Positions 1-60,589 of a DNA stretch of 64,000 nt are shown here, piece by piece. The stretch's first letter is position 1; every line of letters begins with the position of its first letter. This DNA is from Bacillota bacterium (GTDB taxonomy: Bacteria; Bacillota; Clostridia; Peptostreptococcales; Anaerovoracaceae), in the NCBI GenBank assembly GCA_021769295.1, contig JAETTD010000009.1, positions 1-64,000 on the forward strand. Direction: 5' to 3'. Below the pieces are notes generated by a model. The model did no database searches. It was not told the origin of the DNA and saw only the letters and a list, made by a program, of their open reading frames with translations. The translations under genes and the position numbers were made by a program.

Positions 1-122
1 TTGCATTTTAAATTGTGATGTGTACTGTGCCATAATCTTTTCCTCCATACTTACTGGTATTATATCATTGATTCCAGTGTTTGTGTGAAGGAGTCCGTTA
101 AATGGGGACCACATTATCAAAC

Positions 123-157
123 TGCCGTAAAGTCTAAAATTTTTACTATTTTCGGCA
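123..157. repeat. Solo 35-bp TGCCG...CGGCA hairpin unit
   Basis: TGCCGTAAAGTCTAAAATTTTTACTATTTTCGGCA, same 35-bp length and end motifs as the array units elsewhere. Confidence 0.75.
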
Positions 158-12620: not shown

Positions 12621-12655
12621 AAAAACAGGCGGCAATCTAATGCCACCTGTTTTTT
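12621..12655 (+). terminator. Intrinsic terminator of cstA
   Basis: AAAACAGGCGGCAATCTAATGCCACCTGTTTTTT. Confidence 0.75.
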
Positions 12656-12695
12656 CTATACGGTAATTTTCACCGCAGCTGTCTAAATTGCAAAA

Positions 12696-12916
12696 TGCCG
12701 CAAAATTAAGAGAATCGGTCATCTGCGGCACTTTTGCCACCTTATCTCCTTCCAAATTGCCGAAAATAAAGAATAATTCAAGAAATACGGCAGTTTTGCC
12801 CTTCTTCCGGCTCATAAAATGCCGTATTTGAAAGAAATTACGAATTTTACGGCATTTTGGGTCCTATCGCCGCTGTCAAAATGCCGCAATTCAAGAAAAA
12901 TTTAAGATTTACGGCA
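12696..12916. repeat. Hairpin array A: 4 x 35-bp TGCCG...CGGCA units, 27-bp linkers, 62-bp period
   Basis: Units at 12696-12730, 12758-12792, 12820-12854, 12882-12916. Confidence 0.9.
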
Positions 12917-12943
12917 GTCTCGCTATACCTGATAAGAGCTCGC

Positions 12944-13772: not shown

Positions 13773-14669
13773 TTATAAAATATAGTTTTCAAGAACCTGA
13801 CCGTCAAAGTCAAAGTTTTCAATTTGCAGATAATATTCCGCACTGTCTATCAAAGCCTTCATAGGACAAAGGCCTATCACTTCGGAGCCTATCACCTGTA
13901 CTCCGTACCTCTTGGCCTCCGATTTTACCAGCTCCGTAACACGATAGAGCGGCGTCACTCTGAAGTCGGTCATGTTTATGGATACCTGCGCAATGTTTCT
14001 GTCCTCAAGCATAAAGCCCATGGCCTTGACGTTGTTGAGACCGCCGTCTTTTTCTCTGATAATCTTGGCGATATTTTTAGCTATCTGAACATCCGGAGTA
14101 TTCAGGTTCAAGTTATACGCTACGAGAGGAGGTCTTGCTCCCACTGCAACGACTCCGCCTGTAGGATGAATCCTTGCTCCGCCGAAATCAGGCTCCCATT
14201 CAGGGTCCTTTACCTTGTCTGCCATTCCTTCAAACTGACCTTTTCTGACGGTAGCGAGATTCTTTCTTGCCGGTTTTTGCGCCGACATTTCATATAAGAA
14301 AACAGGAAGATCTGCCTCTTCTGCAATTCTCTTTCCTACGACCTTTGAAAGTTCTATACATTCTTCGTTGGTCGCATCTTTAATCGGCACAAAAGGCATT
14401 ACGTCTACACAGCCCATTCTCGGATGCTCACCGGTATGCTTTGTCAAGTCGATAAGTTCCACCGCTTTTTTTGCCAATTTTACGCTTGCCTCTTCGACGC
14501 CCTTTGCATCCCCTATGTAAGTTATAACCGTTCTGTTATGATTAGGGTCTGAAGAGTAATTTAAAAGGGTGCATCCTGCCGTAGTTCTTATCTGCTCTAC
14601 GCAGGCCTCTATAATTTCACTGTTTCTTCCTTCAGATATATTTGGAATACTTTCTATAATTTGAGCCAT
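13773..14669 (-). CDS. ftcD: Glutamate formimidoyltransferase
   Basis: MAQIIESIPNISEGRN, HPRMGCVDVMPFVP; hut operon context. Confidence 0.95.
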   Translation of the reverse strand: MAQIIESIPNISEGRNSEIIEACVEQIRTTAGCTLLNYSSDPNHNRTVITYIGDAKGVEEASVKLAKKAVELIDLTKHTGEHPRMGCVDVMPFVPIKDATNEECIELSKVVGKRIAEEADLPVFLYEMSAQKPARKNLATVRKGQFEGMADKVKDPEWEPDFGGARIHPTGGVVAVGARPPLVAYNLNLNTPDVQIAKNIAKIIREKDGGLNNVKAMGFMLEDRNIAQVSINMTDFRVTPLYRVTELVKSEAKRYGVQVIGSEVIGLCPMKALIDSAEYYLQIENFDFDGQVLENYIL

Positions 14670-14715
14670 TTTAAAAATTCCTCCGTGGTTAAAAGTATAT
14701 ATTATTTTTGAGAAT

Positions 14716-15339
14716 TTATAAAGAGGCTAAAACATCTTCATAAATTTTTTTCGCAAGTTCCTCGGCCTCTTCTATCATATTCTGCGCATTGCCGAATTTG
14801 GCTTTTACCTCTTCGCTCTTAATTCCCGGCAGATTTATCATGACGTTTAGATATGCGCCCTTTACGCCTGCCAAAAAATTCAGTGCTGCAACGCCGAGGT
14901 CCGAAGCTGCGTTGGGATTTGATTTGCCTACTATCTTTGAAGTAATTTTTAAACCTTCTATGCAAAGTTCCATGGTTTCGTAAGGAACTTCTGTTGCAAT
15001 AACCGTAGCCTCCTGAATTGCCTTGCTTCTTAAAGCCTTTTGTTCGTCGCTTTCCTTAGGAAGTTTAAAGGCTGACGACACCTGATTATAAGCGTCCGTG
15101 TCCTTATCTATACCTGCAATAAGCTTGTCATAGACAGACAAAGTCTCCTCTTTAACCTCTTGGCAGAGTTCTTTGTATTCTGCATATCTTTCTTTTGGAA
15201 TGGTCAAATCGCACACCATGGCAGTAAGAGCCGCTCCCTGCGCCGCCGAAAGAGCGCTCACAGAGCCGCCGCCCGGAGCAGGCGCCTCCGATTTGAGTAT
15301 ATCCAAATAACTTTTAATCGTCATGTCAACCAATTTCAT
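14716..15339 (-). CDS. fchA: Cyclodeaminase/methenyltetrahydrofolate cyclohydrolase
   Basis: SEAPAPGGGSVSALSAAQGAALTAMV. Confidence 0.9.
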   Translation of the reverse strand: MKLVDMTIKSYLDILKSEAPAPGGGSVSALSAAQGAALTAMVCDLTIPKERYAEYKELCQEVKEETLSVYDKLIAGIDKDTDAYNQVSSAFKLPKESDEQKALRSKAIQEATVIATEVPYETMELCIEGLKITSKIVGKSNPNAASDLGVAALNFLAGVKGAYLNVMINLPGIKSEEVKAKFGNAQNMIEEAEELAKKIYEDVLASL

Positions 15340-15340
15340 G

Positions 15341-16579
15341 TTAAACTAAAATTCCTTTCTTTATGGTTTTCAGCGCCAGATTTGAGCCTAAACGATAGCA
15401 GAGCATCTCCATGTCGGGAGCGTCCCATATAACCAAATCTCCTTGCTTTCCGATTTCAACGGTTCCCGTCAGATGTCCCCTGTTAATGGCACATGCCGGG
15501 TTTATGGTTACTGCCGTCAGAATCTCTTCCGGCGTCATTTTGTACTTCAAATACCCTAAGTTTATCACAAACTGAAGGTTTAGTGAAGGGCATGAGCCCG
15601 GATTAAAATCCGAAGCTATCGCCACAGGAATCTCAAACTCATCTATCATCCTTCTGACCGGGGCAAAGGTTGCTCCAAGATAGAAAGAAGTGGCCGGCAG
15701 GCACATGGCCGTAGTTCCTCCTTCTGAAAGGGATTCCATTCCTGCCTCGTCAATGACGATAAGATGTTCCGCAGAAGCTGCCTTCATCTGCCCTGCCAGA
15801 ACCGAACCGCCTATAGCCTCTATTTCATCGGCATGGATTTTAAGGCCAAACCCAAGTTCTCTGGCCTTTTCCAGATAAACTTTGCTCTGCTCTGCATTAA
15901 AGACTGAATCCTCTGTAAATATATCGCAAAATTCAGCCAATTCGTGCTCCTTGACGTAAGGCATAATCTCTTCGCAGCAGATTCTGATATATTCTTCCTC
16001 TTTTCCTTTCCACTGTTCTTCTACGGCGTGGGCAGGCATCAGAGTAGAAACTATATCAATAGGGTGATTCTCGTTGAGCTTTTTCAATATCTCAAGCATC
16101 TTAACTTCCGTTTCAAGGTTAAGGCCGTATCCGCTTTTAGCCTCGCAGGTCGTAACGCCAAGCCCAAGCATTTCATCGAGAAAGCCCTGAGTCTTGTCAT
16201 AGAGCTCATCAAAGGAAGCTTCTCTGGTCTTTCTGACCGTATCCATAATGCCGCCGCCGGCTCTGAGGATGTCCAAATACCCTGCTCCTTTAAGCTTCAA
16301 AGGAATCTCATTCTGCCTGTATCCTCCGAAAACCATATGGGTGTGACCGTCAACGAGCCCCGGAGTCACCAATTTATATTCAGCATCAATCACACTGTCT
16401 GCTTGGGACTCTTTACATGGCAGTTCTCCGTCTTTCGTTATGGCTTTGATGATTCCGTCTTCAATCAAAACCGCTGCGTCATTCCATTTTATGTTCTCTC
16501 CTTGCGCCCTTCCCCGATGGCTGTAACTTCCGACAGGGGTCTGCAATACACCTATATTTTTTACAAGCAATGTTGCCAT
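15341..16579 (-). CDS. hutI: Imidazolonepropionase
   Basis: GLVDGHTHMVFGGYRQNE; ASDFNPGSCPS. Confidence 0.96.
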   Translation of the reverse strand: MATLLVKNIGVLQTPVGSYSHRGRAQGENIKWNDAAVLIEDGIIKAITKDGELPCKESQADSVIDAEYKLVTPGLVDGHTHMVFGGYRQNEIPLKLKGAGYLDILRAGGGIMDTVRKTREASFDELYDKTQGFLDEMLGLGVTTCEAKSGYGLNLETEVKMLEILKKLNENHPIDIVSTLMPAHAVEEQWKGKEEEYIRICCEEIMPYVKEHELAEFCDIFTEDSVFNAEQSKVYLEKARELGFGLKIHADEIEAIGGSVLAGQMKAASAEHLIVIDEAGMESLSEGGTTAMCLPATSFYLGATFAPVRRMIDEFEIPVAIASDFNPGSCPSLNLQFVINLGYLKYKMTPEEILTAVTINPACAINRGHLTGTVEIGKQGDLVIWDAPDMEMLCYRLGSNLALKTIKKGILV

Positions 16580-16609
16580 TTGATCTCTCCTATAGCCTTT
16601 GGGTTTCGA

Positions 16610-18634
16610 TTATTTTACAAATTTTTCTACCGTCTTGTCTACCAAGCCGTCATCTGCCAGATACGGAATGGTAATATGACCTTTGCCTTTGTAATTCTTG
16701 TTATATTCCACCGAAGTAGACAGGGCGTTTTCATTTCTTGCCCAGTTTCTTCTGGCAACTCCGCCCATTACGTCCCACATCATGGCTGATTTGATTATTT
16801 CATCGGTTCTCTCGCTTCCGTCAAGCAAAAGTCCGAAACCGCCGTTAATTGCTTTTCCGATTCCTACACCGCCGCCGTTGTGGAGGGCGCACAAAGACAT
16901 TCCCCTGGCTGCGTTGCCTGCAAAGCACTGTACGGCCATATCTGCCATTACGTTGGAACCGTCCTTGATATTGGAGGTTTCTCTGAACGGCGAATCTGTT
17001 CCCGAAACATCGTGATGATCTCTGCCCATCATAACAGGTCCGATTTTTCCTTCTCTTACGAGTTCATTGAATTTAAGTGCGATTCTCGTCCTTCCTTCGG
17101 CATCCTGATATAAAATTCTCGCCTGCGTACCCACAACCAGCTTATTTGCCTTGGCGTCTCTTATCCAAACCCAGTTGTCTCTGTCTTGAGCTCTTCTGGT
17201 AGGGTCTATGCAGTCCATGGCAGCTTTATCCGTTGCATCCAAATCTTCAGGTTTTCCTGACAGGCATACCCACCTGAACGGTCCGTATCCATAGTCAAAC
17301 AGTATAGGTCCCATGATGTCCTCTACATATGAAGGCCAGATAAATCCGTCTTTATCGTCATATCCGTTCTTTGAAATTTCTTTGATTCCGGCGTCATACA
17401 TGGCTTTCATGAAAGAGTTGCCGTAGTCAAAGAAGTATGTGCCCTTTTCGGTAAGAGCCTTGATAGCCTTGTAATGTCTGTGAAGGGTTTCATCAACTTT
17501 TTTGCAGAAAAGGTCTCTGTCCTTATGAAGAAGCTCCGTTCTCTCTTCAAAAGTCATTCCCGCAGGACAGTATCCTCCGTTATACACGTTATGACACGAA
17601 GTCTGGTCTGACAGCAAATCTATCTTAAAATCTTTTTCCACTGCGGCCTCAAGCAGGTCAACTATATTGCCGTGGTAGGCGATCGAAATGCTCTCTTTTG
17701 CTTCAAGTTTGGCTTTTGCCAGCTTGAATATCTCATCTATATCATCCATTATCACGTCAACCCAGCCCTGATCGTGTCTGGTTTCGATTCTGGAAAGGTC
17801 AACTTCGGCAAAAATTCCGACAGCGTTGGCGATGTTGGCTGCCTTAGGCTGAGCCCCGCTCATGCCGCCAAGACCTGATGACACAAAAGTGTGTCCCGCC
17901 AGGTCTCCCTGTTCCGGAACTCCCAGATATTTTCTTCCTGCATTGAGTATGGTATTGAAAGTTCCGTGTACGATGCCCTGAGGCCCTATGTACATCCAGC
18001 CTCCTGCGGTCATCTGGCCGTAGTTGGCAACGCCCATTTCTTCTGCAATTTCCCAGTCATCCAAGTTGTCGTACATTCCTATCATCATGGAATTGGTTAT
18101 TACCACTCTCGGTGCTTCCGGTTTTGACGGAAAAAGTCCAAGGGGATGTCCCGATTCCACAACCAGCGTCTGGTCTTCTGTAAGTTCTTCCAGATACTTC
18201 TTAATCAGCCTGTATTGAAGCCAGTTCTGGCACACCTGACCTGTCTCACCATAGGTAACAAGTTCGTAAGGGTAAAGAGCTACTTCAAAATCCAGATTGT
18301 TTTCTATCATAACCTGAAAAGCCTTTCCTGCAAGGCATTTTCCCTTATATTCGCTGATAGGTTTGCCGTATATTCTGCCCTCCGGCCTGTATCTGTAGGC
18401 ATAAATTCTTCCTCTGGAAGTAAGCTCCTCCATAAATTCGGGAGCCAGTTTTTCGTGAAGTTCCTCGGGAACATAGCGAAGAGCATTTTTCAGAGCAATC
18501 TTTGTCTGCTCCTTGGTAAGTCTAAAGCCTCTGTCCGGCGCTCTTCTTATTCCTTCCTGAAACTTTGGATAGTCGGGGTATTCGTTATCCAGTTTAATCG
18601 TCATAGATTGATTTATGGTTTTGTTATCCAGCAT
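16610..18634 (-). CDS. hutU: Urocanate hydratase
   Basis: Long conserved urocanase sequence; VSSGLGGMSGAQPKAA. Confidence 0.95.
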   Translation of the reverse strand: MLDNKTINQSMTIKLDNEYPDYPKFQEGIRRAPDRGFRLTKEQTKIALKNALRYVPEELHEKLAPEFMEELTSRGRIYAYRYRPEGRIYGKPISEYKGKCLAGKAFQVMIENNLDFEVALYPYELVTYGETGQVCQNWLQYRLIKKYLEELTEDQTLVVESGHPLGLFPSKPEAPRVVITNSMMIGMYDNLDDWEIAEEMGVANYGQMTAGGWMYIGPQGIVHGTFNTILNAGRKYLGVPEQGDLAGHTFVSSGLGGMSGAQPKAANIANAVGIFAEVDLSRIETRHDQGWVDVIMDDIDEIFKLAKAKLEAKESISIAYHGNIVDLLEAAVEKDFKIDLLSDQTSCHNVYNGGYCPAGMTFEERTELLHKDRDLFCKKVDETLHRHYKAIKALTEKGTYFFDYGNSFMKAMYDAGIKEISKNGYDDKDGFIWPSYVEDIMGPILFDYGYGPFRWVCLSGKPEDLDATDKAAMDCIDPTRRAQDRDNWVWIRDAKANKLVVGTQARILYQDAEGRTRIALKFNELVREGKIGPVMMGRDHHDVSGTDSPFRETSNIKDGSNVMADMAVQCFAGNAARGMSLCALHNGGGVGIGKAINGGFGLLLDGSERTDEIIKSAMMWDVMGGVARRNWARNENALSTSVEYNKNYKGKGHITIPYLADDGLVDKTVEKFVK

Positions 18635-18665
18635 TATATTTCTCTCCTTCCGGAATATTTCCAAA

Positions 18666-20207
18666 TTATTTTAGGGTAACAACTTTTTCAACTGCTTTAA
18701 GAAGCTCGCCGTTTTTAACCATTTCGTCAAATTTGACAAGCTCGTCATGCATTATAACGTCTCTTTCAATAGGGTCTGAAACCGTTCTGATATAATCATA
18801 TGCTGCCTTTGTTGCAGGAGCCAGATTTTCTATTCCCTTTTCTCCCTGCTCCTGTCTGAGCCAGATAGCCTGCGCTGCGGCCGCAATTTCTATACCCAGC
18901 ACTTTCTGCGTATTATCAAGCACCATTGCCGCAGTTCTCGCCGACGTGGTTCCCATGGATACGTGGTCTTCCTGATTTGCTGACGACGGAATGGAGTCAA
19001 CACACGCAGGGTGGTCGTAAACCTTGTTTTCCGAAACCATGGAAGCTGCTGCGTACTGGGCAATCATAAAGCCTGAACATACACCGCCGTTTTTAGTCAG
19101 AAATGCAGGCAGGCCCTCCGACAATGCCGGATTTACGAGTCTCTCGGTTCTTCTTTCTGAAACGTTCGCCAGTTCTGAAACAGCTATTTTGAGGAAATCA
19201 AAGGTAAGCGCCATAGGCTGTCCGTGGAAATTGCCTCCGCTTATGACTTCGTCTTCATCCGGAAAGACTATCGGATTGTCTGTTACCGCATTTATTTCTC
19301 TCGAAATCATTTCATATGCGTAGTTTATTGCGTCTCTGGTTGCGCCATGTATCTGAGGCGCGCATCTCAAGGTATATGGGTCCTGCACCTTGGAAGGCTG
19401 GAGAGGCAACGCATTTTTTGAACCTTCAAGCAGGGTCAGCAGATTTTCAGCTGCAACTTTCTGCCCCAAATGTCCTCTCAAGTCGTGTATCTTATGGTCA
19501 TAAGCCTTTTTTATGGCATGAAGTGCTTCGCCCGTTAAGGCACATGCTATATCTGCCACCTTTTGAAGATGCATCGCATCCCACAATACGTTTACTCCTA
19601 CCGCAGTCATCATCTGAGTTCCGTTGTTTAAAGCAAGGCCTTCTTTCGCCGCAAGAACTACAGGCGTAATTCCTTCTGCCGTCATTGCCTCCTTGGCGTC
19701 TGTAATCTCTCCTTTGTATTCAACCTTACCTTCGCCGATAAGTCCAAGGGCAATGTGGGAAAGGGGCGCCAAGTCACCCGAAGCTCCCAGAGAACCTTTT
19801 TCCGGGATTACCGGATGTATTCCCTTATTTATCATATCTATAAGCGTTTGGAGGGTTTCAAGCCTTATTCCGGAGTTTCCTCTTGCAAGCGCATTACAGC
19901 GCAAAAGCATGGCAGCTCTTACATACTGTCTCGGATACGCCTCTCCAAGGGCACATGTATGACTGATAATCAAATTACGCTGAAGTTCTTCCGTCTGCTC
20001 GTTGGAAATAACCACGTTGGAGAACTTTCCGAAGCCTGTTGTCAGTCCGTAGATTACGGCTTTTTCCTCAAGCTTTTTTTCTATGTAGGCTCTTGCTTTT
20101 TTCACCGCTTCTGTTGCTTCCGGTGAAAGCTTTACTTCCTCATTATTGCGGCAAACACGAATTACCTCTTCCACGGTCAGGTCACGCCCGTTTATAAATA
20201 CTGCCAT
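18666..20207 (-). CDS. hutH: Histidine ammonia-lyase
   Basis: MIO motif GSLGASGDLAPLSH. Confidence 0.97.
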   Translation of the reverse strand: MAVFINGRDLTVEEVIRVCRNNEEVKLSPEATEAVKKARAYIEKKLEEKAVIYGLTTGFGKFSNVVISNEQTEELQRNLIISHTCALGEAYPRQYVRAAMLLRCNALARGNSGIRLETLQTLIDMINKGIHPVIPEKGSLGASGDLAPLSHIALGLIGEGKVEYKGEITDAKEAMTAEGITPVVLAAKEGLALNNGTQMMTAVGVNVLWDAMHLQKVADIACALTGEALHAIKKAYDHKIHDLRGHLGQKVAAENLLTLLEGSKNALPLQPSKVQDPYTLRCAPQIHGATRDAINYAYEMISREINAVTDNPIVFPDEDEVISGGNFHGQPMALTFDFLKIAVSELANVSERRTERLVNPALSEGLPAFLTKNGGVCSGFMIAQYAAASMVSENKVYDHPACVDSIPSSANQEDHVSMGTTSARTAAMVLDNTQKVLGIEIAAAAQAIWLRQEQGEKGIENLAPATKAAYDYIRTVSDPIERDVIMHDELVKFDEMVKNGELLKAVEKVVTLK

Positions 20208-20448: not shown

Positions 20449-20693
20449 CATTTTTTTCTTGTTGAAACCCTGTAGCCGTTGAAATTGCTACTTTTTTGAC
20501 AATAATTTTTCTCAGCCCGGCAAAATTCCTCTTACATTATTGTTCCTCTGCCCTTCTTCAGGTAAATATGCAGTGTTTATTCATTTGCGCAGCAATATTA
20601 TATATAAAAAACGGGACTGTCGCACAGCCTACTGAAAAGCCAGCTGTACGACGTTGGCAATTGGCGGGGCAGCTGGTCGGCAAGCAGCGAGAC

Positions 20694-20914
20694 TGCCGTA
20701 AATCTTAATTTTTCTTTGAATTGCGGCATTTTGGCAGCAGCAATAGGGGCCAAATTGCCGTAAATTCCGCAATTTCTTTCATTTGCGGCATTTTATAAGC
20801 CGTAGAAAGGGTAAAACTGCCGTAAATTTGAAATTTTTCTTAGTTTCCGGCATTTGGGAGGGAAATAAGATAGCAAAAGTGCCGCAGATTGAAGAAAATC
20901 TTCATTCTGCGGCA
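20694..20914. repeat. Hairpin array B: 4 x 35-bp units, 27-bp linkers, 62-bp period
   Basis: Units at 20694-20728, 20756-20790, 20818-20852, 20880-20914. Confidence 0.92.
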
Positions 20915-21006
20915 CTTTACAATTCAGACGGTTGCGGCGACATCATTTCGTCCGCCTTTTCAGTCAGCTGTACGACAGCCCCAAATTACATATATATTTA
21001 CATTGT

Positions 21007-40908: not shown

Positions 40909-41018
40909 GACCTTTTTCTGAATTTTCTGAAAATTTAACGGGTTCCTATATTTCAAAGGGAGTCTCAAAAGTTTTGTGGTTCCCTTCCCTATGCGGCATG
41001 GGCGTTCGTGTGCAGATT

Positions 41019-41239
41019 GCCGTAATTTAAAGAAATTTTTAAGTTTACGGCAATTTGAAGGCTTTCTGAAGGGCAATAATGCCGCAATTCGATGAAAATT
41101 AAAAAATTACGGCATTTTAGCTGGCTTCACAGCTCTAAAAATGCCGTAACTAACGAAAATTTTTAATTTTGCGGCAATTTACCTCCCCGACAAGCACTAA
41201 AACTGCCGAAATCAAGTCATTTTTAGGGATTTACGGCAG
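41019..41239. repeat. Hairpin array C: 4 x 35-bp units, 27-bp linkers, 62-bp period
   Basis: Units at 41019-41053, 41081-41115, 41143-41177, 41205-41239. Confidence 0.92.
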
Positions 41240-58440: not shown

Positions 58441-58554
58441 GAAGGGTCTGCGCTGCCTCTCGGAGGGTCCGGCTGCCTCTTGAAGGGGCTGCACTGCTCC
58501 TCGGAGGGTCCGGCTGCCTCTTGGAGGGTCCGGCTGCCTCTTGGAGGGTCTGGC
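58441..58554. repeat. 20-bp GC-rich tandem repeat abutting array D
   Basis: TTGGAGGGTCCGGCTGCCTC-type 20-mers at 58501, 58521, 58541 and degenerate copies upstream. Confidence 0.75.
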
Positions 58555-58837
58555 TGCCGTAAAAGTCGAAAAATTACTTGGTTACGGCATTTTATGGGCT
58601 CTGGAAGCAGTCAAATTGCCGTAAATTTCGAAAAATCACTTGATTGCGGCATTTTATGGGCTCCAAGGGTCGCAAAACTGCCGTAAATACGGAATTTTTA
58701 TTCAATCACGGCATTCTACGAGCTTCAAGGGCAGTCAAACTGCCGTAAACCCATAAAAATTCTTTAATCACGGCATTCTATCGGTCTCGGGGCTATCACG
58801 ACTGCCGTAAATTCGAAAATTTCCTTAAATTACGGCA
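58555..58837. repeat. Hairpin array D: 5 x 35-bp units, 27-bp linkers, 62-bp period
   Basis: Units at 58555-58589, 58617-58651, 58679-58713, 58741-58775, 58803-58837. Confidence 0.93.
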
Positions 58838-58898: not shown

Positions 58899-58978
58899 TG
58901 CCTCTGAGCGTGCCGCAGGCACCATCGACAGGCGCCACCGACAGGCGCCACCGGCGGGCACTCACACTATTTCTTGCG

Positions 58979-60589
58979 TCACATATTAAATATGGTTCGG
59001 CATTTTTCTTCCAGTTCCGCCTGAGCCTTGGCCACAAGTTCTTCGTTGCAGAGCACCACCAATTTGTCACCTGCCACAAGAACGGTGCCACCGCCCGGAA
59101 CTATCTCATGATTATCCCTCTGTATCGATACCACCAAGCAACCGAGCGGAAGCTTGATATCCGAAAGAGGCTTTCCTTCCATGAGAGAACCGTAGTAGAC
59201 TTCGCTTTCAATCAAAACTTTGTTTCGCCGGTTGGGCTTCTTTACCTTTCCGCCCGATATGAGCCTCTCCGTGAGTTGCTCATACAAAGGCCCGCCTTTT
59301 AGGGCGTCCGCAACCATATAAGCTACCAGCGAAACCATGGACAAGGCCAATAGATTGGAAAAAGTTCCCGTCATCTCGCTTATGAGTATTACGCCCGTAA
59401 TCGGAGCCCTTACTATTGCGCTGAAATATCCGGCCATGCCGAGGATTACAAAATACTGAACATAAGTATCCGAGTAGCCGACAACGGGGCTGAGCACCTC
59501 CGTAAAAAGGCCTCCCGTTATTGCTCCAAGCACTAACAGCGGCAGGAACGTTCCGCCCGGCAATCCGCTGCCGAAACTTACGGCAGAAGTTATGTATTTG
59601 ACTGCCAAGAGCAGCAGCAACGCTTTTACGCCCATTGTTCCGCTGCCCGCAGGCTCGATGAGGGAAGCGCCGCTTCCAAGGGCTTCGGGCATTGCAAATA
59701 CAAGAATCATAACCATTACAAACGGAATTACAAATCTGCCCACTACAGGATTTATCTTTGCAAAAACGTCCTGCATAAAAAACGTAGTCTTGTTATAAAA
59801 AACTCCGAACATGCCGAGCAAAATTCCGAGGAGTATGACCATCCATATGCGGTTCAGCGGCATTCCGTTGCTTACCGCAAACTCAAATACAGGCTTTAAG
59901 CCGAAGATATAAGAGCCGACGCAATCAGCCGTTATGGCAGAAGCCATGGTGCTGAGCAAAACTTCCTGGGAGAAGTTTTTGTGCAGTTCTTCAAGGGTAA
60001 ACACAACGCCTGCAAGGGGAGCGCCGAAAGCCGTCGCAAGGCCGGCTCCAGCGCCGCAGGTAAGCAGCAGCCTTTCCTCTGTCCTGAGACGATTGTTTAT
60101 CCGTGAAAACCCTTTGCCCACCATAGCACCAAGCTGAACGCTCGGACCTTCGCTTCCCAGGGAAAGGCCGCCGCCGATAGCAAGAAGGCTGCCGACAAAC
60201 TTGGCGATTATCACCTGAACCCAGTTGGCGTTTATCTTGCCTTTAAGCTCGCCCTCCACCTGAGGGATTCCGCTGCCGCCGCCGAGGGGCTCACGCTTTA
60301 CGATAGCAGCAGCTATGACAAACATAAATATCAAAATACCTATACCGAGCAGGGCAACGAGAATTCTCTGCCCCGCCGCCTCAAGGTACATCTCTCTTAT
60401 TTCTTCTATTTTAAGCAGGCCGTACCTGAACATGGAAACTATAAGCCCAGTCAAAAGGCCCACCCCTATACCCTCGACTATGAGCTGGTATTTGAAGCCC
60501 TGCTTCCTTTTGAGCGTTTCCTTGGTAGCTGTACTTCGCCGTTTTTTTAAAGTTTCTTTAGTAGATTTTATTCTTCGTCTTTTTACCAT
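58979..60589 (-). CDS. ClC-family chloride channel/antiporter with C-terminal TrkA-C domain
   Basis: GGGSGIPQVEG, GSEGPSVQLGAMVG; C-terminal GGGTVLVAGDKLVVL. Confidence 0.93.
   Translation of the reverse strand: MVKRRRIKSTKETLKKRRSTATKETLKRKQGFKYQLIVEGIGVGLLTGLIVSMFRYGLLKIEEIREMYLEAAGQRILVALLGIGILIFMFVIAAAIVKREPLGGGSGIPQVEGELKGKINANWVQVIIAKFVGSLLAIGGGLSLGSEGPSVQLGAMVGKGFSRINNRLRTEERLLLTCGAGAGLATAFGAPLAGVVFTLEELHKNFSQEVLLSTMASAITADCVGSYIFGLKPVFEFAVSNGMPLNRIWMVILLGILLGMFGVFYNKTTFFMQDVFAKINPVVGRFVIPFVMVMILVFAMPEALGSGASLIEPAGSGTMGVKALLLLLAVKYITSAVSFGSGLPGGTFLPLLVLGAITGGLFTEVLSPVVGYSDTYVQYFVILGMAGYFSAIVRAPITGVILISEMTGTFSNLLALSMVSLVAYMVADALKGGPLYEQLTERLISGGKVKKPNRRNKVLIESEVYYGSLMEGKPLSDIKLPLGCLVVSIQRDNHEIVPGGGTVLVAGDKLVVLCNEELVAKAQAELEEKCRTIFNM

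Follow-up and report, generated by a model that had tools for sequence, protein, structure and literature searches.

BOX elements of Streptococcus pneumoniae are assembled from A-B-C modules in which the copy number of boxB varies; as composite intergenic repeats with an internal repeated module they resemble the arrays described here, in which the number of internal units is instead nearly constant. REP/BIME elements are 20-40-bp extragenic palindromes which occur in more than 100 copies, are grouped at regular spacing near gene ends, are restricted to a species, serve as targets for insertion sequences (IS) and are bound by proteins (PMC2817692; PMC3733652). Protein binding apart, the present arrays are like them in these respects, their 35-bp extragenic palindrome forming about 260 adjacent pairs; however, REP/BIME units alternate in orientation, whereas here the units face one way, are mostly four in number and combine an exact 62-bp pitch with helically phased A-tracts. 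The BrickBuilt MITE of Porphyromonas gingivalis (PMC4596501) is likewise intergenic and species-limited with a tandem repeat inside, but it holds 23-bp units without spacers in 19 copies, as opposed to mostly four 62-bp palindromic units, and it does not share the second class without terminal repeats found here. A parallel of another kind is BarR, an archaeal Lrp-type protein whose semi-palindromic sites are regularly spaced at two or three turns along one face of the helix, with the DNA wrapped on an octamer (PMC10201364), so that such a spacing can wrap DNA; BarR acts at a single archaeal operator, whereas the arrays here form a family dispersed genome-wide, and an Lrp binder is not indicated. 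No description of this palindrome-array repeat was found in the open-access literature, where absence proves little.

The window analysed is a 64,000-nt stretch of contig JAETTD010000009.1, and coordinates given without a contig name are window positions. Array A (12670..12924, reverse strand) proved to be a diverged inverted copy of the conserved core of array B (20686..20940, forward strand), linkers included, as the sequence-only reading had proposed: the reverse complement of A aligns to B over 255 nt without a gap, with 205 identical positions (80%), and both contain four 35-nt palindromes at a pitch of 62 bp. Taken in order, the three linkers agree at 21/27, 22/27 and 21/27 positions, whereas shuffled linkers score 7-9/27 (p ≤ 5e-5 each), and every out-of-order linker match is lower. 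The similarity stops sharply on both sides, with 0/10 and 1/10 identical bases in the 10-bp flanks outside; the flank match which had been claimed is thus real but ends at the 255-bp borders, and the site first given, 12696-12916, is the palindrome span of a repeat that itself runs from 12670 to 12924. Numbered in class I orientation (see below), the palindromes of A lie on the reverse strand at 12696..12730 (unit 4), 12758..12792 (unit 3), 12820..12854 (unit 2) and 12882..12916 (unit 1), and a hairpin resembling an intrinsic terminator lies between a cstA-like gene and the array (12621..12654). Array A is a four-palindrome core which has lost its terminal inverted repeats. Array B is a complete MITE-like element of 370 bp (20613..20982, forward strand), with terminal inverted repeats at 20613..20639 (GGGACTGTCGCACAGCC..., forward) and 20956..20982 (reverse) and palindromes, all forward, at 20694..20728, 20756..20790, 20818..20852 and 20880..20914. 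Between the two arrays lies a histidine-utilisation-like gene cluster (13773-20207), the order of which is largely kept in relatives and which includes an aromatic amino-acid lyase family gene (18666-20207).

The search for further full-length composites showed that there is nothing special about A and B as an inverted pair: they are two members of the commonest sort of array, here termed class I. At least 40 full-length copies, B included, with 82-88% identity to B are present in its own 2.26-Mb genome, a lower bound since 40 of 134 first-look candidates were scored; array A is an additional copy, giving at least 41. None was found in the 99 relatives searched with B; plasmids and phages held no similar DNA, and no viral contig exactly matched a two-and-a-half-unit array pattern. 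The better-preserved copies, including B, measure 370-405 bp and have degenerate terminal inverted repeats (GGGGCTGTCGCACAGCC...). Both repeats are recognisable in about six of 35 copies (B and roughly five more within the 1.21 Mb read) and one in about a dozen more, the others having neither; the four-palindrome core is nearly always intact, even where the terminal repeats have been lost, and copies with both ends lack a clear target-site duplication. The proposal that a composite of about 255 bp, not single hairpins, was the unit of dispersal therefore needs to be enlarged. Dispersal as a composite is borne out by 31 aligned class I copies, a class II subfamily similar in register and ten array-less gaps in a congener; the class I mobile unit, judging from the terminal inverted repeats of the 370-405-bp copies, was MITE-like and larger than 255 bp. 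Class I alone has, in its terminal inverted repeats, the main feature of a MITE.

Classes I and II follow a common rule: a 35-bp palindrome, TGCCG-N25-CGGCA, flanked in the consensus by AAAAN and TTTT, recurs every 62 bp, usually four times, and a second, weaker dyad, GCTY-NNN-RAGC, lies in the linker 31 bp from the palindrome centre. Adjacent pairs at 62-bp pitch number 251 genome-wide when at most one of the 20 fixed bases may mismatch, and allowing two or three mismatches raises this to 259 and 260; as loosening adds so little, nearly all of them are perfect. Real pairs of this kind were absent from 149 near relatives, all five congeners included, from 397 other genomes of the order and from 249 of the phylum; matches to the pattern in G026, G058 and G444 are isolated, lie in unrelated sequence and seem accidental. 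Five large contigs (827 kb) contain 43 arrays of at least three units, 20 of class I and 23 of class II, which scales to about 115 arrays in this gut-type Clostridia genome. Of the 71 multi-unit clusters in 1.21 Mb, 61 consist of four units, and 62 bp is the distance in 195 of 206 spacings; three clusters have five units, one of them (C11) counting in a neighbour that is there by chance. The arms are perfect in 251 of the 277 array palindromes, which entered the count only with at most two arm mismatches. A recurrent variant unit begins with TGACCG in place of TGCCG, whereupon the pitch becomes 63 (C5:73035, C5:85338 and other 63-bp spacings). The octamer TGCCGYAA, considered as an uptake-like word, is not enriched outside arrays. 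A de novo search in congeners for palindromes with other arms gave a TGAGC hit in L037, a 63-bp repeat which is probably coding (21 residues), and a hit in G016, a relative of the family, which is a CRISPR-like array (L190:18072-19990, repeat AATTCGAATTTAGACAGACTGGAATTTAAAG); both were set aside. CRISPR arrays have near-identical repeats with unique spacers; the present arrays are of another kind, as their repeats diverge and class I linkers are common to copies.

Class II arrays are nearly unrelated to one another, with a non-arm identity of 0.550 in register against 0.542 when shifted by one unit, the exception being a three-member subfamily 73-86% identical in register. Units run in one direction within each array, and no common ends were found. 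At C48:142-362 unit 3 repeats unit 1 exactly and unit 4 resembles unit 2, a pattern suggestive of a two-unit block duplicated back to four units. The window holds two class II arrays: C (41018..41238, reverse strand), which has four palindromes, lies 44 bp past the gene for tyrosyl-tRNA synthetase and has no close homologue elsewhere in the genome, and D (58555..58837, forward strand), with five palindromes at 62-bp pitch. The flanks of D (58450-58550 and 58900-58990) are short degenerate GC-rich tandem repeats (GGAGGGTCYGGCTGCCTCTT; GCCACCGACAGGC). A single palindrome at 123..157, next to an IS terminus (about 1-116), is probably the remnant of an array cut by the insertion sequence.

Conservation is concentrated in the arms. 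Among 31 class I copies, picked by similarity over their whole length, departure from the consensus is 0.8% in the arms, 7.7% in palindrome interiors and 9.4% in linkers, against 14% at other G/C columns, and indels are almost absent. Variants private to one copy number 8 over 40 positions in the arms, 42 over 100 in the interiors and 31 over 51 in mid-linker, so that the constraint, strong on inherited variants, is about two- to three-fold on singletons. This weaker contrast indicates that the arms are a strong requirement for copies which leave descendants and a less strong one after insertion, and it also fits selection for mobility alone. In class II the arms are nearly perfect and the pitch is kept despite the divergence elsewhere, although some of this arm conservation is ascertainment, the arrays having been detected by their arms.

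What had been read as hairpins are indeed palindromes, but the sequences give no support for pairing, whether in RNA or in a cruciform, because class II stem and linker positions show no clear compensatory change. The palindrome interior is not truly palindromic, A standing opposite A at positions 9 and 27; pairing in oriented class II units never clearly exceeds column composition (smallest p 0.04 among 17 positions), and swapping right halves among palindromes gives a nearly equal folding energy, -8.60 +/- 0.16 against the real -8.85. Covariation is absent from the linker dyad (340 pairs observed, 347 expected). Some class I positions covary (6/30, 11/25 and 15/21), in counts which are not independent, since related copies and their four fixed unit types are lumped together, and class I unit 4 alone is a strong hairpin. 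There is no sign of a structured RNA family, with no clear excess of pairing in class II and no Rfam match in the window. Overall, conservation bears on the symmetric sequence and its spacing rather than on pairing. In both classes the strongest component of the AAA/TTT signal is the 10.3-bp harmonic (62/6), the A-tracts thus being helically phased, and dyads alternate every 31 bp, or three helical turns. The net curvature of 221 bp, a model prediction which follows partly from the shared unit consensus, is 150 for class I and 134 for class II, compared with 74 and 72 after dinucleotide shuffling of the respective class, other intergenic DNA scoring 68.

Based on a simple, crude gene call of our own, 42 of the 43 arrays are intergenic. 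Gaps with arrays are convergent in 19 cases, tandem in 19 and divergent in one, as against 67, 491 and 69 of all gaps, and the median distance from stop codon to array is 78 bp; arrays lie behind genes and avoid promoters. Congener G004 has ten syntenic gene pairs whose gap lacks the array found here and is shorter by 239-693 bp, whereas 172 syntenic array-free gaps have a median difference of 0, and for this reason the arrays are most simply interpreted as insertions since the split from G004. No empty site for A or B was found in relatives' contigs with the aromatic amino-acid lyase gene, because synteny breaks beside both arrays. Contig ends are IS termini, several of them abutting or inside arrays (window 1-116, C5:103, C5:131919, C1:about 117, C48:about 115 and the start of C58). 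For the IS ending in GGGGACCACATTA, all three junctions with flank lie at arrays, in addition to a related one at C1. This suggests that arrays are IS targets or safe sites.

How, then, might these arrays be explained? The best single account, to which we would give about an even chance, is that they are DNA-level landing platforms for a candidate sequence-specific DNA-binding protein, carried and dispersed in the form of small non-autonomous mobile elements. Successive dyads along one side of the double helix would be bound by a dimeric or higher-order protein, which would bend or wrap about 220 bp, the protein-bound array would serve as roadblock or insulator where transcription units end, and class I would have arisen when a MITE took up one such array and amplified it. 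It is arm and pitch conservation, the mostly four units, the lack of covariation, phasing, predicted curvature, gene-end placement, insertion relative to G004 and the lack of TGCCGYAA enrichment outside arrays that argue for this account; we infer from them the binding protein, the wrapping and the roadblock or insulator role. Against it, the single Lrp/AsnC-type gene of the genome is not linked to the arrays. Close behind comes the reading, possible though doubtful, that the arrays are purely selfish non-autonomous elements whose palindromes are sites for a transposase or mobilising protein acting in trans, without host function, the gene-end position being simply a tolerated one. The terminal inverted repeats of class I, the empty orthologous sites in the congener, the confinement to one species, the greater constraint on inherited than on private variants and the avoidance of promoters would all be expected. 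However, class II arrays keep arms, pitch and mostly unit number with no recognisable common ends and hardly any mutual relationship, many class I copies without terminal repeats still hold all four palindromes, and among the Y1 and DDE_Tnp_1 families no partner transposase with matching ends was found, there being no Y1 locus and three DDE_Tnp_1 loci without class I-type ends, in an assembly which breaks at repeats.

Ranked third, and unlikely, is a role as terminators or RNA elements, in which TGCCG...CGGCA followed by TTTT would form a row of two-way intrinsic terminators or stabilisers of mRNA 3' ends. The position behind stop codons is as this would have it, and array C occupies, by eye, the place of a hairpin-like 3' end found behind the tyrosyl-tRNA synthetase gene in five congeners. 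Compared with their G004 orthologues, array-facing ends show eight losses and three gains of a detected terminator against three and eight in controls, counts which are small, not significant and no more than suggestive. Yet 15 of 57 array-facing ends have a terminator of their own (controls: 36 of 78 convergent and 19 of 79 tandem ends), arrays A and D contain no terminator pattern, the class II stems and linkers lack clear compensatory change as described, and the exact 62-bp pitch is left unexplained. Spread as REP/BIME elements by a RAYT (Y1) transposase is highly improbable. It would account for composites of extragenic palindromes lying at the 3' ends of genes, and for insertion sequences lying against arrays as they have been reported to do at REPs (PMC1525189). 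However, identity with REP/BIME is largely refuted: no GTAG or CGTC tag adjoins the palindromes, all units have one orientation and do not alternate, and PF01797 (Y1_Tnp) has no match in this genome (G000, the assembly missing 3%), in which control searches were positive.

The landing-platform account can be extended, in a tentative and rather unlikely form, to a recent genome-wide set of about 115 four-site nucleoprotein scaffolds in one species, in which phased, curved dyads spaced at three helical turns would be wrapped by a dedicated protein, would mark as well as insulate the ends of transcription units and would partly replace intrinsic terminators, one version having become mobile. If the arrays are protein-bound, they would provide a natural, countable and species-restricted system for the fast gain of chromosomal structural sites, and a test of whether nucleoprotein at gene ends can substitute for terminators; the fixed unit number and the phasing make it clear what footprinting, and synthetic arrays of other pitch, should show. 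If they are merely selfish, they would represent an unusually regular MITE cargo and a caution that a palindrome need not mean an RNA hairpin.
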